Origin: a virus
IMG/VR virus record: IMGVR_UViG_3300010151_000129
Span: 1-26,308 of that record
Length of the DNA: 26,308 nucleotides
Reading direction: 5' to 3' (one strand)
The stretch's first letter is position 1, and each line of letters opens with the position of its first letter. Shown here piece by piece: positions 6,812 through 24,582 of the stretch. The notes under the pieces are model-generated. The model made no database searches, was not told where the DNA came from, and saw nothing but the letters and a program-made list of their open reading frames with translations. The position numbers and the translations under genes are program-made.

Positions 6812-6862
6812 TGCTATATTCCACTCATGAGCAATTTAACGACAACAACGAAAGGCAACAAA
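6812..6862 (+). promoter_or_regulatory. Promoter and leaderless in-frame leader, copy 1
   Basis: TGCTATATT (6812-6820) is an extended -10 promoter. Six bases later comes ATG 6827, which would be the first transcribed codon. Its frame (MSNLTTTTKGNK) runs without a stop into the main ATG at 6863, 36 bases on, and includes the AAAGG Shine-Dalgarno of that second start. It is the shortest and most diverged of the six leader copies, and it lacks the TTGAC/TTGTC -35 box of the others. It drives the long operon that leads to the replication genes. Confidence 0.65.
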
Positions 6863-7051
6863 ATGAGCAATCGAACTCCCGAAAAAATCATTGAAGACAT
6901 CCACCGCTGCGAAGACTTTATCAGCGAAGTAGGCGCAGAGGCGCGAAACGAAGCAGTCTTATACGGTGACGCAGTTCCTCAATCTGGATACCAAACAGCA
7001 ATACACGCACTGACCAAATTAGAAGCAGAACTAAAGGAGGCAACAAAATGA
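6863..7051 (+). CDS. Small unknown protein, first gene of the replication operon
   Basis: From ATG 6863 (AAAGG 7-8 bases upstream) the product has 62 residues; from the leaderless ATG 6827 it has 74, beginning MSNLTTTTKGNK. The body is mostly helical and acidic (EKIIEDIHRCEDFISEVGAE, then a second helix ALTKLEAELKEATK). It may be a small coiled-coil-like protein. No family is recognised. It overlaps the next gene by ATGA at 7048. Being first after the promoter, it is likely among the earliest made products, which often are host-takeover proteins, but that is only inference from position. Confidence 0.7.
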   Translation: MSNRTPEKIIEDIHRCEDFISEVGAEARNEAVLYGDAVPQSGYQTAIHALTKLEAELKEATK

Positions 7052-7407
7052 GCAACGAGACAATCAACACAAACGAAAAGATGGTCGACGCGGTACTACG
7101 CGACATATGGAAGAAACGCGCTTGTTTCGCCAGTCGCCTGTCGGCGGGTTACAGTGTCGCGGTTCGAGTGACTCACGCCGAAGCCCCGTTTAACGCGTTG
7201 AACATCAACGCAAAAATGAACGGGCGAAACCTCAAGGTTTTACATGAGGGAAGCATTATTGGCGCGTTGTCCGGTTGGGGGGCCGCGCCGAAATCAAAGA
7301 AGTACAAGCAAGCGGGAAGCGAAGTCGTCTTGGCGACGGTCCAAGTCGAAGACTTGAAAACAGAGATTAAGTGGAATCTAAACCAAAAACGAAAGGCAAC
7401 AAAATGA
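7048..7407 (+). CDS. Unknown protein, 119 residues
   Basis: A very strong AAAGGAGG precedes the ATG. The protein starts MSNETINTNEK, an Asn/Thr-rich opening nearly repeated by the following gene (MSNETSNTNEK). The rest is basic (many Lys/Arg; KSKKYKQAG, NLNQKRKATK at the end) with no recognisable catalytic motif. Residues 35-110 look like a mixed alpha/beta domain. Both ends overlap neighbours by ATGA, so translation is coupled. The basic character would suit nucleic-acid binding, but this is weak evidence. Confidence 0.7.
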   Translation: MSNETINTNEKMVDAVLRDIWKKRACFASRLSAGYSVAVRVTHAEAPFNALNINAKMNGRNLKVLHEGSIIGALSGWGAAPKSKKYKQAGSEVVLATVQVEDLKTEIKWNLNQKRKATK

Positions 7408-7589
7408 GTAACGAGACAAGTAACACAAACGAAAAGGCAGTCGACAATAGGCTTCCCCTGACAAACGCCGGTAACGCGCAAGGTTGCACTTGCTCTGCGC
7501 CGACAAGTAACCGCTACACTTTGAAGGATCGCGGCGACGGAGAAGTCGCACCGCATTGCAGCGGTTGCGGCGAGGAGTTGGAGCTATGA
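7404..7589 (+). CDS. Small zinc-ribbon-like protein
   Basis: The 61-residue product begins at ATG 7404 inside the previous stop, with AACGAAAGGCAAC just upstream. After the Asn/Thr-rich start comes a cysteine pair in GCTCSA (about residues 28-30) and a second pair in HCSGCGEEL near the C-terminus. C-x-C plus C-x2-C spaced by about 22 residues fits a small zinc ribbon. Such proteins in phages often contact nucleic acid or host polymerase, but no specific family is recognised. The stop overlaps the next start (ATGA, 7586). Confidence 0.7.
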   Translation: MSNETSNTNEKAVDNRLPLTNAGNAQGCTCSAPTSNRYTLKDRGDGEVAPHCSGCGEELEL

Positions 7590-8020
7590 ACGACCCAACA
7601 ACGAAAATTCAATTAATCTGGAAGAAGATCGAAGCCGGTTGCTATCGCGCGACCTCGCCAGAGGGCGCGCTTATTCAGGTTGCCAAGTATCCCGGCAACT
7701 ACGCACCGGGCGGGCGACCTTTCTATTGGGCGGTCACGCTTTGGGACACCGAGGACGTAACGAACTTGACCTTCAAAGATCGCGCCGAAGAAATCATACA
7801 AGCCGACGGCGTTTATCAGGGAACACTACTCGAAGCCAAAGACTACGCCGAAGACCTTTTAACTTGGGCGCAGAACGAAACGGTTAAATCGGAAGCATTC
7901 GAAGCGAGCGTTTATCCGAGATTCTTCTTGCCCGGCGAGTACGACGTCGCGACAGGTCGACCGGCGGCGGAAGTTTACGAATTTAACGGCGATCGAATCG
8001 TCGCGAAGGGGGAAAAATGA
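7586..8020 (+). CDS. Unknown soluble protein, 144 residues
   Basis: The start is ATG 7586 (MNDPTTKIQL), eight bases after GAGGAG and overlapping the upstream stop. The product is acidic and aromatic-rich. The N-terminal half has a beta-rich pattern (CYRATSPEGALIQVAKYPG, PFYWAVTLWD) and the middle a helix (LLEAKDYAEDLLTWAQ). The end (EVYEFNGDRIVAKGEK) is charged. Gene position between a zinc ribbon and a small membrane protein gives no functional clue, and I do not recognise the fold. Confidence 0.7.
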   Translation: MNDPTTKIQLIWKKIEAGCYRATSPEGALIQVAKYPGNYAPGGRPFYWAVTLWDTEDVTNLTFKDRAEEIIQADGVYQGTLLEAKDYAEDLLTWAQNETVKSEAFEASVYPRFFLPGEYDVATGRPAAEVYEFNGDRIVAKGEK

Positions 8021-8148
8021 AACTTGCAACGTTAACCAACATCGCCCGCGAATTGCTCGCGGTCGTTTTTGTCGCGGCAGTCTTTGCCGCAATTCTCGCG
8101 GTCGATACGGTTCGGCTCGATCGCATTTTTACGGAGTGGATTAAATGA
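8017..8148 (+). CDS. 43-residue single-pass membrane protein
   Basis: ATG 8017 sits in ATGA with the previous stop, has AAGGGGG four bases upstream, and its own TGA (8146-8148) overlaps the next ATG (8145). That perfect fit on both sides supports a real gene. The product has a short charged start (MKLATLTNIARELL), a hydrophobic helix of about 17 residues (LAVVFVAAVFAAILAV) and a charged tail (DTVRLDRIFTEWIK). It has no lipobox. It is probably an inner-membrane microprotein. Similar small phage proteins include holin-like, superinfection-exclusion and membrane-anchor proteins, but its place among recombination genes makes lysis unlikely. Confidence 0.7.
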   Translation: MKLATLTNIARELLAVVFVAAVFAAILAVDTVRLDRIFTEWIK

Positions 8149-8453
8149 GCAAAGGCAAACTAACAGCGGCGGTAAAAGATCGACGCGCGACGCGCGTCAA
8201 CATTGCGCGCGCCGCGCAACTAATGGATATGAAGTATTCGTCTATCCGCGAAGCGATGGATCGCGGGTACATCCGGGCGACCGTTCGCTATGAAGGGTCA
8301 AACGGGCGAACGGGTCGGCTTACAACAATTGGCGACTTGGAAGACTTTCGACTTGTGCTAATCGAACGTTACTCCGCGTACAACAGCGAACACCACGCCG
8401 CGAAAGTCGAGTCGCTTCAATCTATCGGCGACCTTTCGGACATTGCAACATGA
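8145..8453 (+). CDS. Small DNA-binding protein candidate (helix-turn-helix-like)
   Basis: This 102-residue basic protein contains VNIARAAQLMDMKYSSIREA followed by MDRGYIRATVRYEG (about residues 24-57). That resembles the helix-turn-helix plus wing of excisionase/MerR-like domains, in which the second helix enters the groove and a Y/R-rich hairpin follows. The C-terminal part (DLEDFRLVLIERYSAY) is helical. It overlaps both neighbours by ATGA. A role as a regulator of this operon, or as a recombination accessory, is plausible. The motif is read by eye and not strong enough to name a family. Confidence 0.65.
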   Translation: MSKGKLTAAVKDRRATRVNIARAAQLMDMKYSSIREAMDRGYIRATVRYEGSNGRTGRLTTIGDLEDFRLVLIERYSAYNSEHHAAKVESLQSIGDLSDIAT

Positions 8454-9658
8454 GCAACAAAACGAAAGCAACAGGCGATACGAATCTCGACCGCGCCCGC
8501 GCGGCGGGGTTCGAGATTGTGACCTATTCTTCCCTGTCCCGGTTCAGGAATTGCCGTCGAAAGTTCAAGCTCGGCTACGTTGACGGACTCAAGCCGAAAG
8601 CGAAGAGCGACGCGTTGTGGATTGGAACGATTTTTCACAACGCGATCGAGGCGCATTATAAGCGCGGCGAAATTGACGTCGACCGTTTCTTAACCGAAGA
8701 GCAAGGTTTAACGCTCGACGACGAAACTCGCGGAACGTTTGAGTTGTTGCGCGCAATGTTGCGCGGCTACTTTGCGCGTTGGGGTACGTCGAAAAGCGAC
8801 AAGCCCGTCGGCGTTGATCCTCGCGGGATGATTCGCGACGACGAACTTGAATATCTCTACGTCGAACCGACATTCGTTCACAAAATCCGCAATCCGGAGA
8901 CGGGCGCGAAGTCGCGTTCGTTCATCCTGTCCGGCAAGATCGACGGACTCGTTCATTTGAAAGGAACGAACGAGCTTTACATAAAGGAAAACAAGACGGC
9001 GGCGACGATCGACGGCGCATATCTTGAGCGGCTATGGTCCGATTTCCAGTCGATGCTATACGCGCGATACATCGACGACATCGTTTCGGACGGTTTCGGA
9101 ATGAGAGTCGTCGGCGTTCTGTACGACATAACCGAAAAGACGCGCATTCGTCGCAAGGCGGGCGAGACTGTCGACAAGTTCGAGGAACGACTCGGTCGTT
9201 ACAAGACCGAAAAAACGATCGAGAAGCACCGCGAAGCGGGACCGAAGCCCGCCGAAACTTGGGAAGCGTTTCGCGAGCGCATGAAACGCGAGTACGAAAA
9301 CCCGGACAAGATGCACCGCGAGTTAATACGCTTCGACGAGCAACGGCTCGCGGACATCGACGGCGAGGTTTGGGAAATGACGCAACAAATACTCGACGCG
9401 CGTCGACGCGACAGGTGGTCGATGAACACTTCGCAATGCTATTCGTTCGGCTTCGGCTGTTCGTTCGTCCCGATTTGCCGCGCGGGCGGAGTCCTCGACG
9501 AGATAACAGCGAACGACTTCGAGGTTCGAGTTCCATTCGAAGAACTCGACGACGTAGACTTCGACTTCGAGTCGAACGGAATGATTTTTCAGCCGACCGA
9601 AAAAAAGGTCGCTTCGACTATTGACACCGGCGACGAATCGCCTACCCTTCCTTTCTAA
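8450..9658 (+). CDS. PD-(D/E)XK exonuclease, RecB/Cas4-like, with probable Fe-S cluster
   Basis: The 402-residue protein has the RecB-like nuclease motifs in order: YSSLSRFRNC with the GTIFHNAIEAHY helix (His63), the metal aspartate in SGKIDGLVHL (Asp165), and E-x-K in YIKENKT (Glu180/Lys182). Cys35 near the N-terminus and Cys330, Cys337 and Cys343 near the C-terminus match the split four-cysteine Fe-S cluster of AddB/Cas4-type nucleases. In phages, this enzyme is usually encoded beside a Sak4-type ATPase and a DUF669 protein, as here. It probably resects DNA ends for recombination or replication. It overlaps the upstream gene by ATGA; the acidic tail after residue 360 is probably disordered. 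Confidence 0.9.
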   Translation: MSNKTKATGDTNLDRARAAGFEIVTYSSLSRFRNCRRKFKLGYVDGLKPKAKSDALWIGTIFHNAIEAHYKRGEIDVDRFLTEEQGLTLDDETRGTFELLRAMLRGYFARWGTSKSDKPVGVDPRGMIRDDELEYLYVEPTFVHKIRNPETGAKSRSFILSGKIDGLVHLKGTNELYIKENKTAATIDGAYLERLWSDFQSMLYARYIDDIVSDGFGMRVVGVLYDITEKTRIRRKAGETVDKFEERLGRYKTEKTIEKHREAGPKPAETWEAFRERMKREYENPDKMHRELIRFDEQRLADIDGEVWEMTQQILDARRRDRWSMNTSQCYSFGFGCSFVPICRAGGVLDEITANDFEVRVPFEELDDVDFDFESNGMIFQPTEKKVASTIDTGDESPTLPF

Positions 9659-9685
9659 CCTTTTCCATTTTTTGGAGTTCAAGAC

Positions 9686-10516
9686 ATGACAACGAAAGCA
9701 ACGCAAACGAAACCGGCGGAAGCGACGCCGACAACAACGGCGAAGCCGGTAGGCGTTTTACCGACCGCCTCGACACCGCCGAAGCGAAGGATCGAAGACC
9801 TTTCGATTCTTCTTTACGGCGCGCCCAAGATCGGGAAGTCGTCGTTCGCGGCGCAGTTCCCCGACGCACTCTTCCTACCAACCGAACCCGGCTTAAACTC
9901 GCTCGACGTTTTCCAAGCCCCGGCCGACGGGACAGGCGTTAAAGACTGGCCGGAGCTTTCCCGCATTTATTCGGAAGTCGCGCGCGGCGGACACGGCTTC
10001 AAAACAACAGTTATCGACACAATCGGCAACGCCTACGAATTTGCAGCGGCGCACGTTTGCGGCGCGCGCAACGTTGAATACGCGGGCGACCTCGCGCACG
10101 GTAAAGGTTGGGGATTGATTAAAGCGGAGTTTAAGCGGCTGATTACGGCGGCGGCAAAACTTCCATTCGGTTTAATCATGATCGCTCACGCGACAAACGA
10201 CAAAATCGAGCAAGGTGGTAGCGAGATAATCAAAACGCGTCCGACCTTGTCGAACGCTTGTCGCGAAGTGCTTTTGGGTCTTTGCGATATGATTTTGTTT
10301 TTCGACGTCGAGAAAGTTAACGACGACAACGGAAACGTTCGGTTCGATCGCGTTTTACGCACGAAGCCGAACGCAAACTTTGAAGCGGGCGATCGCTCGG
10401 GAACACTCCCGGCGGTTATCCGTGTACCTAACGGCGCGTCGATGAGTGGCCCGGAACACTCCCGCGCCTTATTTAACGAGTTCCGGAAAGCCTACGAAAG
10501 CGGTGTAAAAAAATGA
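9686..10516 (+). CDS. Sak4-like RecA-fold ATPase (phage recombinase/annealing partner)
   Basis: The 276-residue protein has a Thr/Pro-rich N-terminal tail of about 35 residues, then a RecA-type core. Walker A is GAPKIGKSS (residues 45-53) and Walker B is TTVIDTIG (Asp111). The TEPGLNSLD segment after Walker A is typical of the phage nucleotide-binding/AAA_24 group that includes Sak4. Sak4 proteins work as single-strand annealing or strand-exchange factors together with a single-strand binding protein. The nuclease before and the DUF669 gene after it form the usual trio. GGAG lies eight bases before ATG. The fold is certain; the Sak4 role is inferred from order and motif. Confidence 0.88.
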   Translation: MTTKATQTKPAEATPTTTAKPVGVLPTASTPPKRRIEDLSILLYGAPKIGKSSFAAQFPDALFLPTEPGLNSLDVFQAPADGTGVKDWPELSRIYSEVARGGHGFKTTVIDTIGNAYEFAAAHVCGARNVEYAGDLAHGKGWGLIKAEFKRLITAAAKLPFGLIMIAHATNDKIEQGGSEIIKTRPTLSNACREVLLGLCDMILFFDVEKVNDDNGNVRFDRVLRTKPNANFEAGDRSGTLPAVIRVPNGASMSGPEHSRALFNEFRKAYESGVKK

Positions 10517-11043
10517 ACGACAACAACGGCGATTATTACGGCGATGTTCTGGCAGAAATGGACGACGCGTTCGCGAACGCGCCCGCTCCCGACGGCGGAG
10601 TAACCGAAGTTCCCGACGGCGATTATCAGGTCGTCGTAAAAGAAGCATTCTTGGCGACTTCGCAAACATCGGGCAACCATTTACTAAAATGGAAACTTAA
10701 GGTTATCGGTCCGCGCCATCGTGGCGCGACACTGTGGCGCAATAACGTTATCGCGCGCGATAAGATGCAATGGTTAAAGAAAGACCTCGCGGTTGCGCGG
10801 CTCAATCTCGAAAGCCTGTCGGAGCTTGAAACGCGCGTCGAAGAATTGAAGGGCGTTGTTATGGACGTTCGCGTTCAAAAGAACGGCGACTTTCTTAACG
10901 TATGGCTTAACCGTTTCGTAAAGGTCGACCCGAACGCCGATCTTTCCGACGCGGCTCAAAGTGGCTTCGCTTCGCCAGTTGTTAACGACGTCGGCGCAAC
11001 AACACCGCAAGCACCAATTGACGAAGAAGGGGTTCCGTTCTAA
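10513..11043 (+). CDS. DUF669-family protein (probable single-strand DNA-binding partner)
   Basis: This 176-residue protein shows the DUF669 pattern: PDGDYQVVVKEAFLATSQTS, then HLLKWKLKVIGPRHRGATLW with a run of beta strands, and the KKDLAVARL helix in the middle. An acidic, low-complexity C-terminus (about 150-176, ending EEGVPF) resembles the acidic tip of SSB proteins, which recruits partners. DUF669 genes commonly follow Sak4-type ATPases and are thought to bind single-stranded DNA. It starts in ATGA with the ATPase stop, so the two are translationally coupled. Confidence 0.88.
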   Translation: MNDNNGDYYGDVLAEMDDAFANAPAPDGGVTEVPDGDYQVVVKEAFLATSQTSGNHLLKWKLKVIGPRHRGATLWRNNVIARDKMQWLKKDLAVARLNLESLSELETRVEELKGVVMDVRVQKNGDFLNVWLNRFVKVDPNADLSDAAQSGFASPVVNDVGATTPQAPIDEEGVPF

Positions 11044-11056
11044 AATCTATCGGTTT

Positions 11057-11122
11057 GGCGTCGCGCGCGTTTTTTGCTTTCAACAGCAGTTTCCTACTAT
11101 TCCATCCCTCGCGCGCGACGCC
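11057..11122 (+). repeat. Long inverted repeat (13-bp perfect stem, 40-base loop) before the ERCC4 gene
   Basis: GGCGTCGCGCGCG at 11057-11069 is the exact reverse complement of CGCGCGCGACGCC at 11110-11122. The loop is pyrimidine-rich. The RNA stem would end about 10 bases before ATG 11133 and is followed by TCTTTCTCTT, which is not a clean U tract. It could lower read-through or control translation of the nuclease gene. Confidence 0.6.
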
Positions 11123-11132
11123 TCTTTCTCTT

Positions 11133-11642
11133 ATGCCAAAACGCGAAACAATTCGATTGATTGTCGACACTCGCGAAAAGCGACCTTGGGTTTTTTCGCC
11201 GATCGTGACAACGCGACGCGCGAAGCTCGAATCGGGCGACTACTCAATTGAAGGTTTCGAAGATCGAGTCGCGGTCGAGCGGAAGACGAAAGACGACTTC
11301 GTTTCGTCGATTTGTTCCGGGCGATCGCGATTCAATCGAGAGCTTCGTCGACTGCAAGCGTTCGAGTTTGCGGCGGTCATTGTTGAAGCGGAATTACCCG
11401 ACTTGTTGTCGGGGAACTATACAAGTGGAATGTCCGCGCGCGCTGTTCTTGCGACAACGGCGGCGATCACGGTAGAACGCGGCATTCCTGTTTTCTTTGC
11501 GAGCCATAGAGCGGCGGCGGCGATACTCGCCGAAGCGTTCTTCGCTCGCTTCATAACTAAAAACGAAAGAACGAAAGGGCGAGCAAATGCAACGGCAGAA
11601 ACAAAGACGCGCACCGCGCGAAAGGAAGACCGGCCCGGTTGA
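11133..11642 (+). CDS. ERCC4/XPF-type nuclease
   Basis: From ATG 11133 the product has 169 residues. A TTG at 11055 in the same frame would add 26 but starts inside the inverted repeat, so I prefer the ATG; neither has a clear Shine-Dalgarno. The ERCC4 signature is complete: LIVDTREKRPW (Asp12), ESGDYSI (Gly35-Asp36), then VERKTKDDF (Glu49, Arg50, Lys51, Asp54), the GDXnERKX3D catalytic motif. A later block RSRFNRELRRL is also typical. There is no C-terminal (HhH)2 domain, so this is a minimal nuclease likely to act on branched DNA or flaps. The last 30 residues are Lys/Arg/Thr-rich, and the gene overlaps the helicase gene by 56 bases. Confidence 0.88.
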   Translation: MPKRETIRLIVDTREKRPWVFSPIVTTRRAKLESGDYSIEGFEDRVAVERKTKDDFVSSICSGRSRFNRELRRLQAFEFAAVIVEAELPDLLSGNYTSGMSARAVLATTAAITVERGIPVFFASHRAAAAILAEAFFARFITKNERTKGRANATAETKTRTARKEDRPG

Positions 11643-13860
11643 AGCGACCGGTCGGGTAACGCGAATTTACTATTCGTCCGACTCATTTTCGGCGGGCGTG
11701 TTAACCGCCGACGACGGCACCGACTACAAATTCGCGGCAAAGGGCGAACTCGAAACAGGCGACCGCGTAACGCTCTCGGGCGAGTGGAAGTATCACGCGA
11801 AATACGGCTCGCAAATTGACGGCGCGACTTTCTTGTTTGATACCAAGCCAACAACCGAAGGGCTTGTCGCCTACCTGTCGAAGAGCGATCGGTTTAAGGG
11901 TGTCGGTCCATCGCGCGCGGCGGCTCTTGTTAACTCGATCCTCGCGTTAGGTGACTTCGAAACTATTGTCGTGAACACCGACCCGGCAGAAATCGCCGAA
12001 CGCGCGGGCGTTCCCGTTGCAGTCGTTGAAACACTCCGCGACGAATGGACAACGCAAGCGGGGACGAATGGGATCATGGCCGAGCTTGCCGGTTTCGGCG
12101 TGACACCGGCAGCGGCGAAGAAGTTGTTCGACAGGTTCGGCGGCTCGGTTGTAAAAACGATTCAGCGTAACCCGTACTTTCTTGTCGGTCGGATTCGAGG
12201 GTACGGCTTTAAGCGTGTCGATGAAATCGCGCTCCGGGCGGGCATGACGAAAAACGATTCGAGTCGCATAGCGGCGGGCGTTGTTCACGTTTTGCGCGAG
12301 GCGCGCGACAATGGCGGACATACATTCACGGCGGCGAAGCCGTTCGTTCGCGCCGCTCTTGAGTTGCTCGCGCTCGACACAATAGACTGTCGCGAACGCG
12401 TCGAAGCGGCAATCGGCGACGCGGTCGAGGGCGGCGATATTCGCGCGGCGGAAATCAACGGCGAACACCTGTTCGGCTTGCCTGAACTGTGGCAAGCCGA
12501 AGAGGTTGTTCAGGGCGCGATTAAAGCAAACGCGCAAGGCGCGGGCGCATTCTCCGAGCAATCGCCTGAGAGTCTCGCAAAGCTCGCTCTCGACGCGTGT
12601 TCGACCTTGAACGACGGACAAGTCGCGGCGGTCGTTGGCGCGCTCTCTAACCGCCTGTCGGTGATTACAGGCGGCGCGGGATCGGGAAAAACGTTTCTCG
12701 TCGGTGCAATCTGCGACCTGTTCGAATCTCACAACGACGCAACCGTCGCGCTTGCCGCGCCTACCGGCAAGGCGGCGAACCGCTTAATCGAATCCGTCGG
12801 GCGAAAGGCGACGACGATTCACGTTTTACTCGACCCGAAGCCGCAAACCGTCGACGGCGAAGTCGTCTTTAACTTCGCGAAAAACGAAGAAGACAAGATC
12901 GACGCCGACCTCTTGATCGTCGACGAAGTTTCCATGGTCGACGTTCTTTTATTCTCGTCGCTATTGCTCGCGGTCGATTGGAACCGAACGACGGTCGTTC
13001 TTGTCGGCGATCACAACCAACTGCCGCCGGTAGGCGCGGGCGCGGTTCTTCGCGACCTTATCTCGGGCGACCTCGCGCCGGTCGCGCGGTTAACTGAAAT
13101 TCACCGCAACGCCGGAACGCTCGAACGCAAAATTAACAACGTGTTGTCTGGCGTCGTCGAGGCGTCCGTTCCTCGCGACTCGGGTTCGATTGAGATTCCG
13201 CCTTGGACCATACTTCCGAAATACAAAGACAAAGACGAAGCGGCTACGTTTATCGCGCGCCTGTTCCGCGAACATTTGGAAAAGTTCACGCGCGCGGACG
13301 GGTCGCCAGTTGATCCGATATGGGGCGTACAACTGTTAACCGCGATGCACAACGGACCGGTCGGAACGAAAGCGTTAAACTTTGCGCTTCAAACGATCGC
13401 GGCGGAGCGCGACGGACGACCGGCACCGATTGCAAATCCGAAGACCGGGATCGCCCCGATTCAAACAGGCGACAAAATCATTCAGACGAAGAACGATTAC
13501 AAAATCGGAGTTATGAACGGAACAGTCGGACGGGTCGTTTCAAAAAGTGTAGACTCTCAAGACATGACGATTGATTTCGACGGAATCGGAGTCGTCGAGC
13601 TGTCCGGCTCGGCGGCGAGTAACGTCCAACTCGCCTACGCGTTAACCGTTCATAAGTCGCAAGGGTCGGAATACCCGATCGTCGTATATGTTTGTCACAA
13701 ATCACAGTCAATAATGTTGCATCGAGGATTATTTTATACTGCCGTCTCGCGCGCCCGCGAAGCGGTTGTCGTCGTCGGGGATTCGTGGGGAATCCGAACT
13801 TGCGCGAAGCGGATTCGAACGGATAAGCGACGAACGTTGCTTTCGTTGTCGTCGAAATAG
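11587..13860 (+). CDS. RecD2-type SF1B DNA helicase
   Basis: The 757-residue protein matches RecD2 (RecD/TraA family). The first 80 residues form an OB-like domain (EATGRVTRIYY, LSGEWKYH). Helix-hairpin-helix-like segments follow at about 100-220 (FKGVGPSRAA, ELAGFGVTPAAAKKL, VGRIRGYGFKRVD). Motor motifs are Walker A GGAGSGKT (362-369), LAAPTGKAA (389-397), DEVSM (446-450) and GDHNQLPPVG (474-483). Near the end are LTVHKSQGSEY and TAVSRARE. It would move 5' to 3' on single strands. AAAGGG precedes the ATG within the upstream gene. No deletion of a motor motif is visible. Confidence 0.93.
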   Translation: MQRQKQRRAPRERKTGPVEATGRVTRIYYSSDSFSAGVLTADDGTDYKFAAKGELETGDRVTLSGEWKYHAKYGSQIDGATFLFDTKPTTEGLVAYLSKSDRFKGVGPSRAAALVNSILALGDFETIVVNTDPAEIAERAGVPVAVVETLRDEWTTQAGTNGIMAELAGFGVTPAAAKKLFDRFGGSVVKTIQRNPYFLVGRIRGYGFKRVDEIALRAGMTKNDSSRIAAGVVHVLREARDNGGHTFTAAKPFVRAALELLALDTIDCRERVEAAIGDAVEGGDIRAAEINGEHLFGLPELWQAEEVVQGAIKANAQGAGAFSEQSPESLAKLALDACSTLNDGQVAAVVGALSNRLSVITGGAGSGKTFLVGAICDLFESHNDATVALAAPTGKAANRLIESVGRKATTIHVLLDPKPQTVDGEVVFNFAKNEEDKIDADLLIVDEVSMVDVLLFSSLLLAVDWNRTTVVLVGDHNQLPPVGAGAVLRDLISGDLAPVARLTEIHRNAGTLERKINNVLSGVVEASVPRDSGSIEIPPWTILPKYKDKDEAATFIARLFREHLEKFTRADGSPVDPIWGVQLLTAMHNGPVGTKALNFALQTIAAERDGRPAPIANPKTGIAPIQTGDKIIQTKNDYKIGVMNGTVGRVVSKSVDSQDMTIDFDGIGVVELSGSAASNVQLAYALTVHKSQGSEYPIVVYVCHKSQSIMLHRGLFYTAVSRAREAVVVVGDSWGIRTCAKRIRTDKRRTLLSLSSK

Positions 13861-13875
13861 CAGAGAAAAGGGAAC

Positions 13876-18505: not shown

Positions 18506-18584
18506 TTGACGATAGGCAAAATGAGCCTATAGTCAGGCCATGAGTAAGACAGTAAACAACGCAACCGCAACGAAAGGCAACGAA
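18506..18584 (+). promoter_or_regulatory. Promoter, operator-like repeat and in-frame leader, copy 2
   Basis: TTGACG (18506-18511) and TATAGT (18528-18533) are 16 bases apart. ATG 18540 follows six bases after the -10 box, at the expected +1. Its frame (MSKTVNNATATKGNE) continues into ATG 18585, 45 bases on. ATAGGC (18512-18517) and GCCTAT (18525-18530) form a perfect inverted repeat across the spacer and -10 box, a likely repressor site unique to this copy. Confidence 0.75.
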
Positions 18585-18785
18585 ATGAGCAACGCAACAA
18601 CAGCAAAAGACATCCAAGAAATCATCGACGGAGCAAAGAAGTTCCTCGAAGCGAACAAGGACACGGACCCGAACCATAGGGACCTCGATAGTGGATTTTC
18701 AATGGACGTTCTACTCATAGCGCACAGGGATGTGATTGAGCGAATGGAAGCCAGACTTGCCGACCTTTACAACGAACGAAACTAA
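18585..18785 (+). CDS. Small helical unknown protein
   Basis: From ATG 18585 the product has 66 residues (81 from the leaderless ATG 18540). After MSNATTAK it is charged and helical (DIQEIIDGAKKFLEANKD; then DVIERMEARLADLYNERN). The final LADLYNER recurs in the third gene of this unit (19262-19621), including 21 identical bases, which suggests shared descent or a shared binding helix. No family recognised. It is the first gene of a four-gene unit ending at the 19996-20049 terminator. Confidence 0.7.
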   Translation: MSNATTAKDIQEIIDGAKKFLEANKDTDPNHRDLDSGFSMDVLLIAHRDVIERMEARLADLYNERN

Positions 18786-19163: not shown

Positions 19164-19169
19164 GACCGA

Positions 19170-19227
19170 GGGAAGGCGCGAGCCTTCCCCGCTCTTCGAT
19201 CGCCATTCATTCGAATGACGATCGAAG
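19170..19227 (+). ncRNA. Tandem-hairpin RNA element, copy A
   Basis: Hairpin 1 is GGGAAGGC / GCCTTCCC with a GCGA loop (19170-19189). Hairpin 2 (19194-19227) has a 9-bp stem CTTCGATCG / CGATCGAAG, a C-A mismatch (19203 and 19218), and an inner stem CATT / AATG. No U tract follows, so it is not a standard terminator. The downstream initiation block begins about 20 bases later. Confidence 0.65.
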
Positions 19228-19261
19228 ATCGAGCAACTAAACCAAAACGAAAGGCAACGAA

Positions 19262-19621
19262 ATGAACGACCCGAAGACAATCGACGTAACGCCAACATGG
19301 TCCGGCATACTCCCGGCACTACTTGCCATAGTCGCAAACGGTGAAACCTTCGAAGCGCGCAAGGAAGCACAAGAGCAACTCGCACAAATGGCAAAACTCG
19401 CCGACCTTTACAACGAACGACTCGAAGACGCCGACGAAATGCGCGACGCGCTGTTGGTCGTCAATACTTCCCCGGCGATTCGCGATTGGCTTGTCGATAA
19501 TGACTTGCAATGTTTGAAGCAAGTAAACGCCGCGCTCGGTTGTTCCGATTCGCATTTGAAAAAGCTCGAAGCGGAAAAGTTAGAACGCATGTCCGAGCAA
19601 CTGGAGGCAAAAACGAAATGA
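19262..19621 (+). CDS. Unknown helical protein sharing the LADLYNER motif
   Basis: The 119-residue acidic protein follows AACGAAAGGCAAC. Residues 30-60 form a charged helix (EARKEAQEQLAQMAKLADLYN) that carries the motif shared with the first gene of this unit. The C-terminal third is also helical and charged (LKKLEAEKLERMSEQLEAKTK), compatible with a coiled coil and perhaps with oligomerisation. A middle segment, PAIRDWLVDNDLQCLKQVN, looks globular. There is no known domain. Its stop is in ATGA with the next start. Confidence 0.7.
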   Translation: MNDPKTIDVTPTWSGILPALLAIVANGETFEARKEAQEQLAQMAKLADLYNERLEDADEMRDALLVVNTSPAIRDWLVDNDLQCLKQVNAALGCSDSHLKKLEAEKLERMSEQLEAKTK

Positions 19622-19977
19622 ACTTCGACGAAGCACTAACGACCGCCGCAACAGGCGGCGGTCGCCTTGTCCCGTCGCACGACGACGCCATTCTCGCCGA
19701 AGCAATCTTCGCCGTCGCCGTTACTCTTTCAGAACACGAAGTCGCGTTGTCGACAGGCGCAATCGGGATCGAGTACGGCGCGCCAGTGAACGCGGTTCGC
19801 AATGTCCGGGCGATGATCGCCGCGCGACTTCTCCGCGCGTTACCAATGCCCGACGATTCGCCCGGCAATCGCGCGACGTTGACGAGCGAGGGTCGCAACT
19901 GGTTAGCGACGTTTCAATCGTTGGACGGAGTGAAACGGCTTCAGGGCATCGCGGACGAGCGGTCGTCGGCGGAATAA
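19618..19977 (+). CDS. Possible winged-helix-type regulator, last gene of unit 2
   Basis: ATG 19618 lies within the previous stop, with GGAGG about 10 bases upstream; product 119 residues. The middle (about 35-95) reads like a winged helix: a helix with VALSTGAIGIEYG, a likely recognition helix VNAVRNVRAMIAARLLRALP, then a short hairpin and TLTSEGRNWLATF. The family TLTSEG block is common in DNA-binding proteins of this type. No signal or membrane segment. DNA binding is inferred, with moderate confidence; a regulator for the cassette promoters is an attractive but untested idea. Confidence 0.65.
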   Translation: MNFDEALTTAATGGGRLVPSHDDAILAEAIFAVAVTLSEHEVALSTGAIGIEYGAPVNAVRNVRAMIAARLLRALPMPDDSPGNRATLTSEGRNWLATFQSLDGVKRLQGIADERSSAE

Positions 19978-19995
19978 GTGAAAATTCTTTCGTTC

Positions 19996-20049
19996 GAGAG
20001 ACGTCGTTTACGCGTTGTATTCGGCGTTTCTCTTTTTTCTTCTTGAGCG
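19996..20049 (+). terminator. Rho-independent terminator of unit 2
   Basis: GAGAGACGTCG (19996-20006) pairs with CGGCGTTTCTC (20032-20042) at 11 positions with two G-U pairs. A 25-base loop and six T residues (20043-20048) follow this pattern. The next promoter begins only 14 bases later. Confidence 0.7.
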
Positions 20050-20062
20050 GACTATTTTATAG

Positions 20063-20138
20063 TTGACGGGAAGGAATGTTCACCTATATTCATGGTGTGA
20101 GTAACGCAGTAAACAACACCGCAACGAAAGGCAAAACA
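20063..20138 (+). promoter_or_regulatory. Promoter and in-frame leader, copy 3 (GTG type)
   Basis: TTGACG (20063-20068) and TATATT (20085-20090) have a 16-base spacer. GTG 20097 lies six bases after the -10 box. Its frame (MSNAVNNTATKGKT) reaches the main ATG 20139 after 42 bases. This is the only copy with GTG as its first codon and the only one whose main gene does not begin ATGAGC. Confidence 0.7.
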
Positions 20139-20357
20139 ATGTACTTCAGCGAAACAAACAAAATCGAAACGATCGGCGACTTCAACGTAGTTACTTCTTG
20201 GGGCATCGAAGAGGTAAGCGTTCTTCGCAAGGGCGACGTCTACATCGCAACGATGATTACCGGGCCGCGTCATTTCACCGTAGTTAATCAGGCCGACGGC
20301 GACACCATCGCAAACGCAATGCTCGCCGTCGTGACGAAAGCCGAAGGGACAAACTAA
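20139..20357 (+). CDS. Small beta-rich unknown protein
   Basis: The product has 72 residues from ATG 20139, or 86 with the leader. Its residues alternate as in beta strands (NKIETIGDFNVVTSWGIEEV, GDVYIATMITGPRHFTVVNQ), suggesting a small barrel or sheet, with a C-terminal helix (ANAMLAVVTKAEG). It has no cysteines or membrane helix. No family is recognised. It is the first of five genes in unit 3; the next starts after two bases. Confidence 0.7.
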   Translation: MYFSETNKIETIGDFNVVTSWGIEEVSVLRKGDVYIATMITGPRHFTVVNQADGDTIANAMLAVVTKAEGTN

Positions 20358-20359
20358 TC

Positions 20360-20545
20360 ATGCGCGCAACAATTATGAATCACCCGACGACTCTTTTTAC
20401 AATCGAACAGGCGAACGACTTAGTAATCAAGTTGAACGCGGACGACGAAGAGTGGACCTACGTCGCGAAGCACGATCCGACGGGTCGCGGTTTCTCGTTC
20501 ATCGAAATCACCGACGAAGACGGCTTCGTTCTCGGCAACCTCTAA
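20360..20545 (+). CDS. Small unknown protein, 61 residues
   Basis: It starts at ATG 20360, two bases after the previous stop; an in-frame ATG at 20375 (MNHPTT) is an alternative, and neither has a strong Shine-Dalgarno, so translation is probably coupled. The product is acidic (DDEEW, TDEDG), with an N-terminal TIEQANDLVIKLN helix and a beta-like C-terminal part. No motif recognised. The tight fit in the unit and consistent codon use support a real gene. Confidence 0.6.
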   Translation: MRATIMNHPTTLFTIEQANDLVIKLNADDEEWTYVAKHDPTGRGFSFIEITDEDGFVLGNL

Positions 20546-20573
20546 ACCTAAACCAAAAACGAAAGGCAACGAC

Positions 20574-20795
20574 ATGAGCAACAACAGCAACGAACTAAAC
20601 GCGCTTCTCGAAATCCACGAAATCGCAACCGACATCGCGGAGCAACGCGGGATCGCGAGCGGCAATCGCGAAGCACTCGCGCGAGCGGCGAAGTCTTACA
20701 CGGGTTGGCATTCACACTGTGGCGCACTCGGATTCGTCCGGGCAGTTAACGCGCTCGTCGAATCGACGCGCGAGTTTGAAAGGGCAAGCAAATGA
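20574..20795 (+). CDS. Small unknown protein beginning MSNNSN
   Basis: The 73-residue product follows a full copy of the initiation block (AACGAAAGGCAAC, then ATGAGCAAC). It is mostly helical: ALLEIHEIATDIAEQRGIA, then EALARAAKSYTGWHSHCGAL. The single Cys and two His residues near position 50 are too few for a clear metal site. It ends in ATGA with the next gene, which opens with nearly the same MSNNSN sequence. No family recognised. Confidence 0.65.
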   Translation: MSNNSNELNALLEIHEIATDIAEQRGIASGNREALARAAKSYTGWHSHCGALGFVRAVNALVESTREFERASK

Positions 20796-21028
20796 GCAAC
20801 AACAGCAACAACAGAAAACCGCGTCGAACTATGGAGCAAATCGCGCGCGATGAAATCGCGACAGTGACAACCAAGGCGGGCGAACTCCGCGACGACCTTC
20901 TCGATCATCGAGAGACATGCGAACGTTCACGGGCTGGTAAGACTTGCGAGACATGCGAGGCGATTACATCGTACTTTGTCTCAACGACTGCCGGGTTCGA
21001 TTACTTGAGCGAAGGCGGCAAATTATGA
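20792..21028 (+). CDS. Small unknown protein with C-x2-C motif
   Basis: The 78-residue protein starts MSNNSNNRKPRRT, with a basic N-terminus, then a helix (MEQIARDEIATVTTKAGELR). The middle has HRETCERSRAGKTCETCEA: His-x3-Cys and Cys-x2-Cys together could hold a zinc ion. The end (SYFVSTTAGFDYLSEGGKL) is uncharged. The arrangement of basic start plus metal site suits nucleic-acid or protein binding. AAAGGGCAAGC is just upstream. It overlaps both neighbours by ATGA. Confidence 0.65.
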   Translation: MSNNSNNRKPRRTMEQIARDEIATVTTKAGELRDDLLDHRETCERSRAGKTCETCEAITSYFVSTTAGFDYLSEGGKL

Positions 21029-21195
21029 TCTTCGCGGTCACAATCGGCGGGGCCGTCTTTCAACGGTTCGAAGCGTACGAAGAGGCGGTCGCGTGTTACA
21101 TCGCCGTAAGGCGCGACTACGGGTCAAGAGCCGACGTTGAACTCGTCGCGCTCGATTACGCCGACGCGAAAGGGGTTCGCATGAACGGCCAATAA
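21025..21195 (+). CDS. Small unknown protein, 56 residues
   Basis: ATG 21025 shares ATGA with the previous stop. The product (MIFAVTIGGAVFQRFEAYEE...) has a beta strand, then a helix (YEEAVACYIAVRRDYG), then a strand (DVELVALDYADA), a compact beta-alpha-beta-like order. The hydrophobic opening is too short to be a membrane helix. It is the last gene of unit 3 and ends 19 bases before the terminator hairpin at 21215. No family recognised. Confidence 0.6.
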   Translation: MIFAVTIGGAVFQRFEAYEEAVACYIAVRRDYGSRADVELVALDYADAKGVRMNGQ

Positions 21196-21214
21196 TTACT
21201 TTCGTTGAATTCGT

Positions 21215-21252
21215 GCGCGGATCGGCGATTTGAGCCGGTTCGCGCTTTATTT
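21215..21252 (+). terminator. Rho-independent terminator of unit 3
   Basis: GCGCGGATCGGC (21215-21226) pairs with GCCGGTTCGCGC (21234-21245) in 12 positions with two G-U pairs and a seven-base loop, followed by TTTATTT. The flanking sequence CTTTCGTTGAATTCGTG is shared with the terminator of unit 4. Confidence 0.8.
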
Positions 21253-21257
21253 CGGGT

Positions 21258-21355
21258 TTGACAGGAAATTACTCTTGTCGGCAGGAAGAATGGACCTATA
21301 CTCTGTCATGAGTAACGCAGTAAACAACACGACAAACGAAACGAAAGGCAACGAC
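21258..21355 (+). promoter_or_regulatory. Promoter, direct repeats and in-frame leader, copy 4
   Basis: TTGTCG (21275-21280) and TATACT (21297-21302) are 16 bases apart. ATG 21308 is five bases after the -10 box. The leader frame (MSNAVNNTTNETKGND) enters ATG 21356 after 48 bases. ACAGGAA (21261) and GCAGGAA (21281) form a direct repeat 20 bases apart. A consensus TTGACA at 21258 is too far from the -10 box to serve as its -35. Confidence 0.75.
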
Positions 21356-21529
21356 ATGAGCAACGATTACGATACACCGAAAAACATCAACGAGTATCTT
21401 TTCGCCGAGTGCGTTTCCGACGCGTTGGGCGAGGAATTTTCGATCGAACTTCACTACGGTTACATCACCGTTACAGGACCAACCAACCCGACGACCATCA
21501 TCGAAGACGTTAAGTCTTCGATCGTCTAA
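21356..21529 (+). CDS. Small acidic unknown protein
   Basis: The product has 57 residues (73 with the leader extension). After MSNDYDTPKN it has a helix (INEYLFAECVSDALGEEF) and then beta strands (SIELHYGYITVTGP). It has no family I can name. Its size, and the helix followed by two strands, vaguely resemble the N-terminal part of the next gene, but identity is too low to claim a duplication. It is first in unit 4; the next gene starts after 18 bases. Confidence 0.65.
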   Translation: MSNDYDTPKNINEYLFAECVSDALGEEFSIELHYGYITVTGPTNPTTIIEDVKSSIV

Positions 21530-21547
21530 TAAACGAAAGGCAAAGAC

Positions 21548-22030
21548 ATGAGCAACAGCAATAACACACCATCGAACGACGTAACCGCCAAGGCGAAAAT
21601 CATCCGGGCAACAATCAAGAAGCAACTCGGCCACAACGCGAAAGCCGTTAGCGTTCGAAGCCATCGTTACTCGATGGGATCTTCGATCTATGTAACAGTG
21701 AACACCGCCGCCGCCGCAAGAGACGTCGACGCCATTCGGGACATCGCTCAAATCGGCACGGTCGGTTACAACAGCTTCGTTCAAGTTTCGGTTAGCGATT
21801 CGGCGCAAGCCGAACTCGCTACGCCGGAGCTTATCGAAGCCGTCGCAAACGCTCGCGCAAAGCTCGACCCGACAAAAAAAGAACTCGTTCCCGTCGAAGG
21901 GACCGATGTTGCAATCAGTTTCTACTATGGGTTCGACGTAAACGTTTACGTCGAAGGCGTCGGCTTCGCCGTTCTAATCAGCGGCTACAAAAACGACGCT
22001 TACATCGCTTACAAAATCGCTACACTCTAA
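21548..22030 (+). CDS. LPD29-like protein
   Basis: The 160-residue protein starts MSNSNNTPSN and then reads KIIRATIKKQLGHNAKAVSV followed by RSHRYSMGSSIYVTV (about residues 18-52). That matches my memory of the LPD29-type domain, found in large polyvalent proteins of phages and plasmids, where a FSVRS-x-SYxGGxSI pattern is typical. The second half (from VPVEGTDVAISFYYGFDVNV) is another beta-rich segment. The activity of LPD29 is not established. Here it stands as a small separate protein and not inside a giant one. AACGAAAGGCAAAGAC precedes ATG. Confidence 0.65.
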   Translation: MSNSNNTPSNDVTAKAKIIRATIKKQLGHNAKAVSVRSHRYSMGSSIYVTVNTAAAARDVDAIRDIAQIGTVGYNSFVQVSVSDSAQAELATPELIEAVANARAKLDPTKKELVPVEGTDVAISFYYGFDVNVYVEGVGFAVLISGYKNDAYIAYKIATL

Positions 22031-22058
22031 ACCAAAACCAAAAACGAAAGGCAACATC

Positions 22059-22700
22059 ATGAGCATTTACATTTACACACTACAGGCGCGCGGACGACAA
22101 ATAACCTTCCCCGATGGAAGCGAACAGACGGTTTACCCGATGCAATTTCGATCGGGAAATTGCTTCAGCGAATGGAATTTCAATTCCTACAACTCGGAAA
22201 CTATCGCAGAACATTACGGCGAGTTGGCTATGAATCGTTGGCACGAACGCGAAGCGACCAACAAAGGCGCGAAGTACATTCGCCACGGCGACGAAGTCTA
22301 CGACGTTAGCGATTGCTCGGTCCTCGAATATTCGAGTTGGATCGATACCGACGCGCTTCCCGGCGAATTTATCGGTACGTTGAAAGGGCGAGTTCTTGAA
22401 CCGGCGTCGCGTTGGGAATTATACGAAATTCACGCGAACCCTTGCGAGGCGAGGAAGCGGGATACTGTCGTTTTTACATGCGAAACGCGACTTACCCGCG
22501 AGTGGGATGGCACGGCGTCGGTTTACGAATGCCGCATGCGGGCGCTTGACGTTCAGCCCGGCGTAGTTGTTACGCACTCGCTCTACGTCGGCGACACCGA
22601 CTCAGGAATCGACTCGGAACGGATCGCGGCGCATTGGGACGGCTTCAAGCGTACGCAAACCGCCTACGCCGAACGCGCGCATACGACGACGCCAGTTTAA
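22059..22700 (+). CDS. Unknown protein, 213 residues
   Basis: This is one of the larger accessory products. It starts MSIYIYTLQARGRQITFP after the initiation block AACGAAAGGCAACATC. The sequence is aromatic- and acid-rich, with many Tyr, Trp and Glu residues (CFSEWNFNSYNSETIAEHYG; SVLEYSSWIDTDALPG). Six cysteines are scattered and do not form a clear zinc site. It has no membrane segment. The last part (SERIAAHWDGFKRTQTAYAE) is helical. No domain recognised. It is the last gene of unit 4 before the 22727-22765 terminator. Confidence 0.7.
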   Translation: MSIYIYTLQARGRQITFPDGSEQTVYPMQFRSGNCFSEWNFNSYNSETIAEHYGELAMNRWHEREATNKGAKYIRHGDEVYDVSDCSVLEYSSWIDTDALPGEFIGTLKGRVLEPASRWELYEIHANPCEARKRDTVVFTCETRLTREWDGTASVYECRMRALDVQPGVVVTHSLYVGDTDSGIDSERIAAHWDGFKRTQTAYAERAHTTTPV

Positions 22701-22726
22701 GCCGAGATTTCTTTCGTTGAATTCGT

Positions 22727-22765
22727 GCGCGAATCGCTGTTCTAAGGCGGTTCGCGCTTTTTCTT
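22727..22765 (+). terminator. Rho-independent terminator of unit 4
   Basis: GCGCGAATCGC (22727-22737) pairs with GCGGTTCGCGC (22747-22757), 11 positions with one G-U pair, loop nine bases, then TTTTTCTT. It is homologous to the unit 3 terminator. Confidence 0.8.
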
Positions 22766-22772
22766 TGCCTGA

Positions 22773-22862
22773 ACAGGAAATTCCTCTTGCCAACAGGAAG
22801 AATAGACCTATACTCGGGTCATGAGTAACGCAGTAAACAACACGACAACGAAAGGCAACGAC
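22773..22862 (+). promoter_or_regulatory. Promoter, palindrome and in-frame leader, copy 5
   Basis: TTGCCA (22787-22792) and TATACT (22809-22814) are 16 bases apart. ATG 22821 is six bases after the -10 box, and its frame (MSNAVNNTTTKGND) meets ATG 22863 after 42 bases. ACAGGAA occurs at 22773 and 22793 (20 bases apart), and AGGAAATTCCT (22775-22785) is an imperfect-centre palindrome just before the -35 box. Confidence 0.78.
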
Positions 22863-23279
22863 ATGAGCAACGCAACAACAAATACGAATCCTTCAAACCA
22901 AAACTTCGAAACGGTACGCCTGAACGGCGACGCGGCTTTCTTCGTGAACGCCGCAACCGGGCATAACAATTGGCGTCAAATCAATACTACTTCTGAGTCC
23001 GTTCTTAATTGGGACGGCGTCAATTCCGGCGACTCAATGTTCGCAATCGAAAGCAACGTTTACGAAGGCATTATGGCTTACGTTTCGTTCGAATCCGTTA
23101 CCGGTCGCATGGCGACAAGAATTCCGAACGAAGACGGCGCGTATGGTTTCCGCGTTAAGTTGGCGATCGAAGTCGACAACAAACGCCTTTCCCTCTTCGG
23201 TTGGATCGCCGTTGCCGGTGGACCTGCAATCACGCGCGCCGAAGTCGACGCAATCGTCGCCGCCGCGACGATCAAGTAA
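22863..23279 (+). CDS. Unknown protein, 138 residues
   Basis: The product starts MSNATTNTNPSNQN, an Asn/Thr-rich and probably disordered tail, extended by 14 residues if the leaderless start is used. The body is beta-rich (ETVRLNGDAAFFVNAATGHN; MAYVSFESVTGRMATRI) and ends with GWIAVAGGPAITRAEVDAIV. It has no cysteine site or membrane helix. I do not recognise the family. The second tandem-hairpin element follows directly after the stop. Confidence 0.68.
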   Translation: MSNATTNTNPSNQNFETVRLNGDAAFFVNAATGHNNWRQINTTSESVLNWDGVNSGDSMFAIESNVYEGIMAYVSFESVTGRMATRIPNEDGAYGFRVKLAIEVDNKRLSLFGWIAVAGGPAITRAEVDAIVAAATIK

Positions 23280-23289
23280 CGGACGGGAC

Positions 23290-23340
23290 CGGGGCGAAAG
23301 CCCCGCGTTCCTTCATCGCCGCGACAAGCGACGATGAAGG
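23290..23340 (+). ncRNA. Tandem-hairpin RNA element, copy B
   Basis: Hairpin 1 is CGGGGC / GCCCCG with a GAAA loop (23290-23305). Hairpin 2 (23310-23340) has a 9-bp stem CCTTCATCG / CGATGAAGG, a C-A mismatch (23319 and 23331), then an inner stem CGC / GCG with a five-base loop. Compared with copies A and C, several stem pairs differ on both strands together, so the fold is kept while the sequence changes. Confidence 0.68.
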
Positions 23341-23389
23341 ATCGAAGACCGAGAACGAAAGAAACTAAAACCAAAAGAAAGGCAACAAC

Positions 23390-24370
23390 ATGAGCAACGC
23401 AACAGAAACAAAAATGAGCGAAAAGGCAGTTATCAAAAAGATGGCCCTGAAGTTCGCCGAAGACAACGAAGCGGAAAACGCGACCAACCCGGTCCGCGTT
23501 ATTACGACGCGCAACGGAACGACCGTCGAGTCGCGCTACAGCGATCGGTCGGTACAGGCGGCACTTCGTTTTTACGTCAACGCCGAAACTGTTACCTCGA
23601 ATTTCGCGCGGTCGCTTGCTGACCATTCGTCGCGCGTAGGCGGCGGCGGCTTTTCGCGGTACAAGGCTTGCGGTTTGTCTCCGGAGCAAACTTGTTGGGC
23701 GCATGTCATCGTCGTTCAAACCGAGGCGCGCTTGCTCGAAGAGGTCCGCAAGATTAAGGCGGCAGTCGCCGAAGTCGTAAGCGAGTTCAAGGCGAACCGA
23801 AAGCCGATCGTCGAGCGCCTTCAGGCGGCGCGCGAGTCGGGCGTTAATTATCCGAAGATTCGTCTGTCGACTGACGACGGCGATAAGGTCGTCTTGAGTC
23901 TCGCCGGGTCGGCTTCGCGTAATCCCGGTTCAGTGTCAGTGACGGACGGCGGGCCATTCGAGCAAAACGTTTATTACGGTCGCGTCAACGTCGACGGAAC
24001 ATTCGTCGCCGCGCGCGCCTTCAACGACAAAGTCGCCGCTGTTCTCGATGCACTGGCGGACGACACGGCAACAGCCGCCGCGATTCACGGCAAGCGTACC
24101 GGGTCTTGCTCGTTCTGCGGAAGGCATCTTGAGACGACCGAATCAGTGACCGCCGGATACGGTCCGGTTTGCGCGGAACGCTACGGCTTGCCTTGGGGCA
24201 AGGCGGCGGCAGTCGAAGCCGAAGAGACTGTCGAGCAATGCCACGGCGTAGGGCGCGACTGCTCGAACCCGGCGACGGATACGATTGGCGGCGCGCCGCG
24301 TTGCGCCGATTGCTACGAAGAGATTCGTTCGGAAATGGCGGGTTATGAGGATGATTTGCGCGCGATGTAA
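23390..24370 (+). CDS. DUF6011-like zinc-binding protein with a second Cys cluster
   Basis: The 326-residue protein is the largest accessory product. Its middle has long charged helices (about 100-150). At about residues 238-270 lies GSCSFCGRHLETTESVTAGY followed by GPVCAERYGLPWG, the DUF6011 pattern seen in many phage proteins, with Cys240 and Cys243 and a later Cys. After it, CHGVGRDCSNPATD and RCADCYEE form a second possible zinc site. Such proteins probably bind nucleic acids or protein partners. An in-frame ATG nine codons in (MSEKAV) is possible, but the initiation block supports ATG 23390. It is the last gene of unit 5. Confidence 0.8.
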   Translation: MSNATETKMSEKAVIKKMALKFAEDNEAENATNPVRVITTRNGTTVESRYSDRSVQAALRFYVNAETVTSNFARSLADHSSRVGGGGFSRYKACGLSPEQTCWAHVIVVQTEARLLEEVRKIKAAVAEVVSEFKANRKPIVERLQAARESGVNYPKIRLSTDDGDKVVLSLAGSASRNPGSVSVTDGGPFEQNVYYGRVNVDGTFVAARAFNDKVAAVLDALADDTATAAAIHGKRTGSCSFCGRHLETTESVTAGYGPVCAERYGLPWGKAAAVEAEETVEQCHGVGRDCSNPATDTIGGAPRCADCYEEIRSEMAGYEDDLRAM

Positions 24371-24381
24371 CGCGCCGAACC

Positions 24382-24420
24382 GCGCGCCGCGACCAATCCG
24401 TCGCGGCGCGCTTTTTTTCT
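24382..24420 (+). terminator. Rho-independent terminator of unit 5
   Basis: GCGCGCCGCGAC (24382-24393) and GTCGCGGCGCGC (24400-24411) are exact reverse complements, with a six-base loop and seven T residues after them. It is the strongest terminator in the window. Confidence 0.92.
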
Positions 24421-24480
24421 AACGCTGAATTCGACGCCTGTCGGGCGGTTTGGCGCGCTTTGCGATTTATCTTTGCCTGA

Positions 24481-24582
24481 ACAGGAAATTCCTCTTGTCG
24501 ACGGGAAGAATACCCCTATACTCAGTTCATGAGTAAGACAGTAAACAACACGGCAACAACAACAGCCACGAAAGGCAACACC
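24481..24582 (+). promoter_or_regulatory. Promoter, palindrome and in-frame leader, copy 6
   Basis: TTGTCG (24495-24500) and TATACT (24517-24522) are 16 bases apart. ATG 24529 is six bases on. Its frame (MSKTVNNTATTTATKGNT) meets ATG 24583 after 54 bases, the longest leader. ACAGGAA (24481) and ACGGGAA (24501) are 20 bases apart, and AGGAAATTCCT (24483-24493) is identical to copy 5. Confidence 0.78.

Follow-up and report, generated by a model that had tools for sequence, protein, structure and literature searches.

The window analysed here (IMG/VR virus record IMGVR_UViG_3300010151_000129, positions 1 to 26,308; 26,308 bases) comes from a marine phage of the tailed type and overlaps a 48,514-base viral contig, IMGVR_UViG_3300006754_000004 (hereafter the sister contig), at an identity above 99.9%. 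Tail genes are present, together with replication and recombination genes for an exonuclease V/RecD-like helicase, a primase, an exonuclease and a Sak4-like annealing protein. The subject of this report is a promoter-and-leader arrangement found six times on the plus strand, each time ahead of the first gene of a putative early operon, in which two start codons stand in one frame: an ATG or GTG shortly after a −10 box and, further on, an ATG with a Shine-Dalgarno (SD) site. The geometry, the common frame, the shared start context and the presence of five cassettes copied before unrelated genes are directly observed, and on balance we read the arrangement as a portable early cassette that would offer leaderless and SD-led initiation in a single frame.

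The −10 boxes begin at 6815, 18528, 20085, 21297, 22809 and 24517, and are followed after 6, 6, 6, 5, 6 and 6 bases by a first start (five ATG, one GTG). In the first region (6815..6862), the −10 box TATATT (6815-6820) precedes ATG 6827, a 36-nucleotide (nt) in-frame leader MSNLTTTTKGNK and the SD string ACGAAAGGCAAC, and the scan found no −35; the gene at 6863..7051 encodes 62 amino acids from the SD start ATG 6863 or 74 from 6827. The other five sites have the form TTGNCN-16-TATANT, a list to which the 6815 box does not belong. The second (18506..18584; TTGACG-16-TATAGT at 18506-18533, ATG 18540, 45-nt leader MSKTVNNATATKGNE) leads into a gene at 18585..18785 of 66 amino acids from the SD ATG 18585 or 81 from 18540, and the third (20063..20138; TTGACG-16-TATATT at 20063-20090, GTG 20097, 42-nt leader (V)SNAVNNTATKGKT) into one at 20139..20357 of 72 amino acids from the SD ATG 20139 or 86 from GTG 20097. 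The fourth (21275..21355; TTGTCG-16-TATACT at 21275-21302, ATG 21308, 48-nt leader MSNAVNNTTNETKGND) is followed by a gene at 21356..21529 (57 amino acids from the SD ATG 21356, 73 from 21308), the fifth (22787..22862; TTGCCA-16-TATACT at 22787-22814, ATG 22821, 42-nt leader MSNAVNNTTTKGND) by one at 22863..23279 (138 amino acids from the SD ATG 22863, 152 from 22821), and the sixth (24495..24582; TTGTCG-16-TATACT at 24495-24522, ATG 24529, 54-nt leader MSKTVNNTATTTATKGNT) by one at 24583..24867 (94 amino acids from the SD ATG 24583, 112 from 24529).

The distances from first to second start are accordingly 36, 45, 42, 48, 42 and 54 bases, all in frame and all stop-free. These boxes, gaps and distances had been reported in an earlier note on this DNA, and every one was reproduced. 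At 6/6 sites the −10 box lies the roughly 5-7 nt before an ATG or GTG that is expected of a leaderless mRNA, and at 6/6 an SD-led second start stands downstream on what is predicted to be the same transcript, as in mRNAs that pair a 5′-terminal upstream AUG with an SD start. None of the six first genes matched a Pfam family (E up to 0.001) or a PHROGs entry (E up to 0.01). Two details of the third site deserve record: an additional ATG lies one base past the 20085 box, and the GTG start sits inside a GTGTG run (window 20095-20099), so that the transcript may have two overlapping GTG starts, in different frames, close to its 5′ end.

Evidence that the first codon is a start comes from its context. 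The 8-mer ATGAGYAA has 21 plus-strand and two minus-strand copies in the 48.5 kb sister contig, and every plus-strand copy opens a reading frame of at least 57 codons; five of these are leaderless-type starts, and AAAGG stands close upstream of 12 of the 16 others. The sixth leaderless-type start reads GTGAGTAA. NTGAGYAA is kept at 6/6 sites, and an alignment of the six regions shows TGAG.AA unchanged behind the first base, against variable bases between −10 box and start. The sole change of first codon, ATG to GTG at 20097, still gives a start codon. Independently of any argument from frame, this pattern says that the first codon appears to be kept as a start. In addition, an open in-frame ATG or GTG 30-60 nt upstream is found for 6/6 first genes versus 1/11 other listed early starts (one-sided Fisher 0.0006). 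That the transcript begins at this codon we infer from the −10 spacing; the leaderless geometry claimed by the earlier note was borne out, and its wording that this codon lies exactly where transcription should start was too strong for a prediction from spacing. A further close double start was observed at window 6299-6322, where GTGAGTAATCAC is followed in frame, 12 bases on, by ATGAGCAAG, ahead of an open reading frame of 125-129 amino acids.

The six sites are not independent. Five cassettes resemble one another in their promoter regions (0.62-0.87) and leaders (0.67-0.88), with downstream genes at the background level of 0.47-0.57, and the 6815 promoter is unrelated to the others (0.43-0.49). 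The earlier note's count of six was thus overstated: in effect, these are one promoter-plus-leader cassette copied five times before unrelated genes, plus the site at 6815. Five distinct leader lengths require at least four length changes, and the chance that all would be multiples of three is, by our estimate, about 1 in 81. Frame is better evidence here than missing stops. Stop triplets do occur in each leader, two or three of them, but always out of frame. The earlier claim that the leaders are strongly suggested to be translated stands as regards the frame rule and the start context, and was overstated as an argument from frame and stops alone. An attenuator or leader-peptide function was rejected, as no in-frame stop closes a short peptide and the leaders contain no predicted terminator hairpin, even if two have folding energies of −8 and −9 kcal/mol.

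The copying of the cassette also favours a different explanation, in which only the SD start makes protein and the leader is an untranslated element, such as an operator, a CA-rich ribosome-binding enhancer or a stability tag, that was copied with its promoter, the ATG at +1 and the frame being ancestral. The homology of the five copies is what this would predict, CA repeats are described as helping SD-led initiation too (PMC9031893), and stop-free leaders are not rare at such composition. We consider it unlikely, given that NTGAGYAA is retained at every site while neighbouring promoter bases vary and marks starts across the contig, that the promoter at 6815 is not related to the others, and that every length difference is a multiple of three.

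The second start also looks usable. All six first genes keep the SD string ACGAAAGGCAA ahead of their second ATG, and it has not decayed despite the changed leader lengths; among the 11 other listed early starts it precedes 5, and AAAGG precedes 10, giving AAAGG before 16/17 and ACGAAAGGCAA before 11/17 of all listed early starts together. As these strings also stand before other early starts, the second start should work. This bears on the converse explanation, that only the leaderless start is used: a promoter with its start would once have been placed before SD-led genes, leaving the SD start as a leftover and the genes 12-18 residues longer than that start implies. In mycobacteria, annotated genes are often extended upstream in frame by a leaderless start (PMC4633059), and both the −10 spacing and the start context fit. 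An intact SD string and second ATG at all six sites, in the face of diverged leader lengths and codons, together with AAAGG before 10 of the 11 other starts, make it distinctly improbable. Codon-position differences between leaders were compared by eye and are too few to count.

Under the dual-start reading, a sigma-70 type promoter would start the transcript at the AUG or GUG, the CA-rich leader of 36-54 nt would itself be coding, and the phage's usual SD start would follow in the same frame. Ribosomes of the 70S type would initiate at the first codon as on a leaderless mRNA, and others would use the SD start in the manner of internal genes. Each first gene would then have two products, the longer carrying in addition the 12-18 Asn/Thr/Ala-rich residues that the leader encodes, and we think it rather likely that two protein forms are made. 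The most probable benefit would be that ribosomes load robustly and early onto the first gene, and keeping the frame would let those that load at the 5′ end produce usable protein instead of passing over the second start out of frame. The extension is probably of little functional importance in itself, being much alike on unrelated proteins, and any role for it is doubtful. The CA-rich character of the leaders, noted earlier, was confirmed, and CA repeats after a start are described as aiding leaderless as well as SD-led initiation (PMC9031893). A proposal that the two forms have different jobs, with their ratio switched during infection by ribosome state, draws on the differing responses of leaderless and SD initiation to IF3, S1 and other factors (PMC9031893), and is hardly credible for much the same low-complexity extension on six unrelated proteins that lack Pfam or PHROGs matches; nothing in the sequence points to such a switch, and the earlier suggestion of it is unsupported. 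The broadest form of the dual-start reading, in which each early operon's first gene is readable in one frame by 70S leaderless and 30S SD initiation throughout the phage, is tentative and rather improbable. If true, early expression would continue regardless of the fate of initiation factors or the anti-SD in infection, and the N-terminal forms would report the route used.

As an empirical control against chance, stronger than the arguments from stops and frame, a filter was composed after this phage had been seen, requiring a −35 of at least 4/6, a −10 of at least 5/6, an ATG or GTG 3-11 bases on, and a second ATG or GTG with an SD-like string 24-75 bases on, this second start opening at least 50 codons. 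At gap 5-6 the 48.5 kb phage yielded five pairs that are open and in frame; one further pair, at gap 4 of the 20085 box, is out of frame. Across 1,824,103 bases of 131 other loci, some of which overlap one another, 688 promoter-like sites gave nine pairs, none in frame at gap 5-6; among these, L129 was out of frame at gap 6, L086 in frame at gap 8 with a stop, and L105 in frame at gap 10 and open. The control loci were terminase relatives (the best 80 of 537 viral, two being this phage, and at least 47 genome loci) and six others, and with at most 10 kb of flank for each terminase relative, an early region farther away would be missed. MW202621 and MW202657 (terminase identity 52% and 46%), whose early genes differ from those of this phage, each have six places with a −10 box plus start in their first 50,000 bases, none with an in-frame SD second start.

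Searches of viral contigs with exact and codon-degenerate leader patterns matched the sister contig only, and those by SD-plus-start motif, primase and tail protein returned the sister contig and further contigs of the same phage at identities of at least 99.9%. Three matches to the SD-plus-start motif (L030, L032 and L033) have no 20-mers in common with the sister contig and look like chance. The viral contigs searched by leader, SD motif, primase and tail protein included no diverged relative carrying these leaders, and the near-identical contigs show no change in the promoter and leader stretches compared (five other contigs for leader 1, one for leaders 2-6). The large tail protein matched 115 phage records, most commonly from Caulobacter and Rhodobacter phages, with a Manatee Spring contig as its best match (36%).

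A general rule for phages was also considered and rejected. The pattern TATAAT-N5-6-ATG-N24-54-AGGAGG-N6-ATG, which uses TATAAT and AGGAGG instead of the phage's own TATACT/TATATT and AAAGG, was found in at least 120 stretches of viral contigs, with 80 loci listed, and the same pattern with N14-15 served as a displaced control. Among the matches listed, after removal of redundancy and of second open reading frames below 40 codons, 100 distinct matches to the pattern left 72, with 23/12/37 in frames 0/1/2 and 6/72 open in frame, and 99 matches to the control left 68, with 21/30/17 in frames 0/1/2 and 7/68 open in frame, so the in-frame rate is like that of the displaced control. The frame counts are uneven, perhaps through related contigs, with frame 2 in excess for the general pattern.

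Several observations weigh against the dual-start reading. The transcript 5′ ends at the six first codons are predicted from the −10 spacing only, and the 6815 promoter is without a listed −35. Stop-free leaders are weak evidence, with a joint probability of 0.105 in base shuffles. Paralogous copies leave, by estimate, only about four independent tests of frame, and the 1-in-81 figure is less impressive because runs of the triplets ACA/ACG/GCA can change length in threes by slippage even where no coding constraint acts. Folding is divided. Three of the six leaders, in favour of the reading, form less structure than every one of 200 shuffles, and the remaining three resemble theirs in folding; among the latter, pairing is predicted for the first GTG of the 20097 leader (−8.1 kcal/mol) and, in a 3-pair stem, for part of the SD of the 24529 leader (−9.1 kcal/mol). 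The arrangement is absent among the terminase relatives scanned (the best 80 of 537 viral and at least 47 genome loci, with flanks of up to 10 kb), and promoter-like sites in those listed show no excess of starts at gap 5-7. Finally, 9 of 13 tested E. coli 5′-terminal upstream open reading frames gave less than 8% of the expression of the downstream gene (PMC4965119), and leaderless expression in E. coli is described as weak, with GTG poor (PMC4633059).

The closest known systems share parts of this arrangement. E. coli mRNAs with a 5′-terminal AUG plus an SD start, on which 70S ribosomes were shown experimentally to bind the first and 30S subunits the second (Beck et al. 2016, PMC4965119), likewise combine a 5′-end AUG, here predicted, with an SD-led start on one mRNA. 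Unlike the 13 tested E. coli cases, which were separate upstream open reading frames chosen out of frame, the six in the phage are in frame and stop-free, and five are copies. An ATG or GTG at the transcript 5′ end, again predicted here, is shared with leaderless genes of mycobacteria and Caulobacter (PMC4633059, PMC4117421); in-frame upstream leaderless starts are described in mycobacteria (PMC4633059), and one gene with two in-frame isoforms in Caulobacter (PMC4117421). Those are single host genes mapped experimentally, whereas the phage has one cassette repeated before unrelated genes and known from its sequence.

Cluster K mycobacteriophages carry the start-associated SAS and the promoter-bearing ESAS elements, a short repeat just before many non-structural starts, a subset of which have a repeated promoter upstream; an imperfect inverted repeat of 17 bp around the promoter marks the ESAS, and a leaderless transcript is predicted for Adephagia gene 90 (PMC3203893, PMC11373665). 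A repeated motif within a few bases of many starts is present here too, as AAAGG at 16/17 of the listed early starts. Unlike the cluster K SAS consensus GGGATAGGAGCCC (PMC3203893, PMC11373665), which is absent from the 17 upstream stretches, the phage motif is ACGAAAGGCAAC; it works like an SAS and is not one. The passages on cluster K in these papers describe no in-frame leaderless-plus-SD pair, unlike what is found in this phage. No report of a phage that repeats an in-frame leaderless-plus-SD cassette was found in the open-access literature searched, mostly from listings, subscription papers being outside its scope. Leaderless and SD initiation have mostly been studied on separate mRNAs, and the cassette would join both in one frame; its repeats, with varied leader lengths in one genome, amount to a natural experiment on when each route serves and whether phages hedge. 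Gene callers may mis-set the starts of such genes.

The dual-start arrangement is not the layout of every promoter in the phage, since the top promoter-like site of 6400-26308, a single putative site (25477..25506, plus strand; TTGACT-18-TATAAT, 11/12 matches), has no ATG or GTG at gap 5-6, and the next likely start is ATG 25606 of a ParB_N protein, about 100 nt downstream. Promoter-like sites in 6400-26308 number 12 versus a mean of 8.0 (sd 3.1) in shuffles, a count little above chance.

Four of the six cassettes come just after a long terminator-like hairpin on the plus strand: 6705..6736 (14 pairs) before the 6815 promoter, and 21215..21245, 22727..22757 and 24382..24411 (12 pairs each) before those at 21297, 22809 and 24517. 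Hairpins with at least 12 pairs number five (6705, 21215, 22727, 24382 and 25370), all at operon borders; the total of 41 terminator-like sites is no excess over the 39.9 in shuffles. In T4-type phages a stem-loop with an early promoter forms a movable unit that resembles the cassette described here. To our knowledge, those T4-type cassettes have no leaderless coding leader. A repeated ACAGGAA was also observed at window 6768, 21261, 22773, 22793 and 24481, so that five of the six exact plus-strand copies in the window sit at these promoters; it lies 47-48 bases before three first starts and 59 before 6827, and at two promoters a second copy, ACAGGAA or ACGGGAA, follows 20 bases on. The repeat is possibly a regulator site.

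Past the window end, the sister contig encodes a QueC family protein (PF06508, E 2e-32; L023:13364-14023) between a ParB-like gene and the terminase, which makes deazaguanine DNA modification possible. At window 24876, a G run between genes is one G shorter in the window than in the sister contig.

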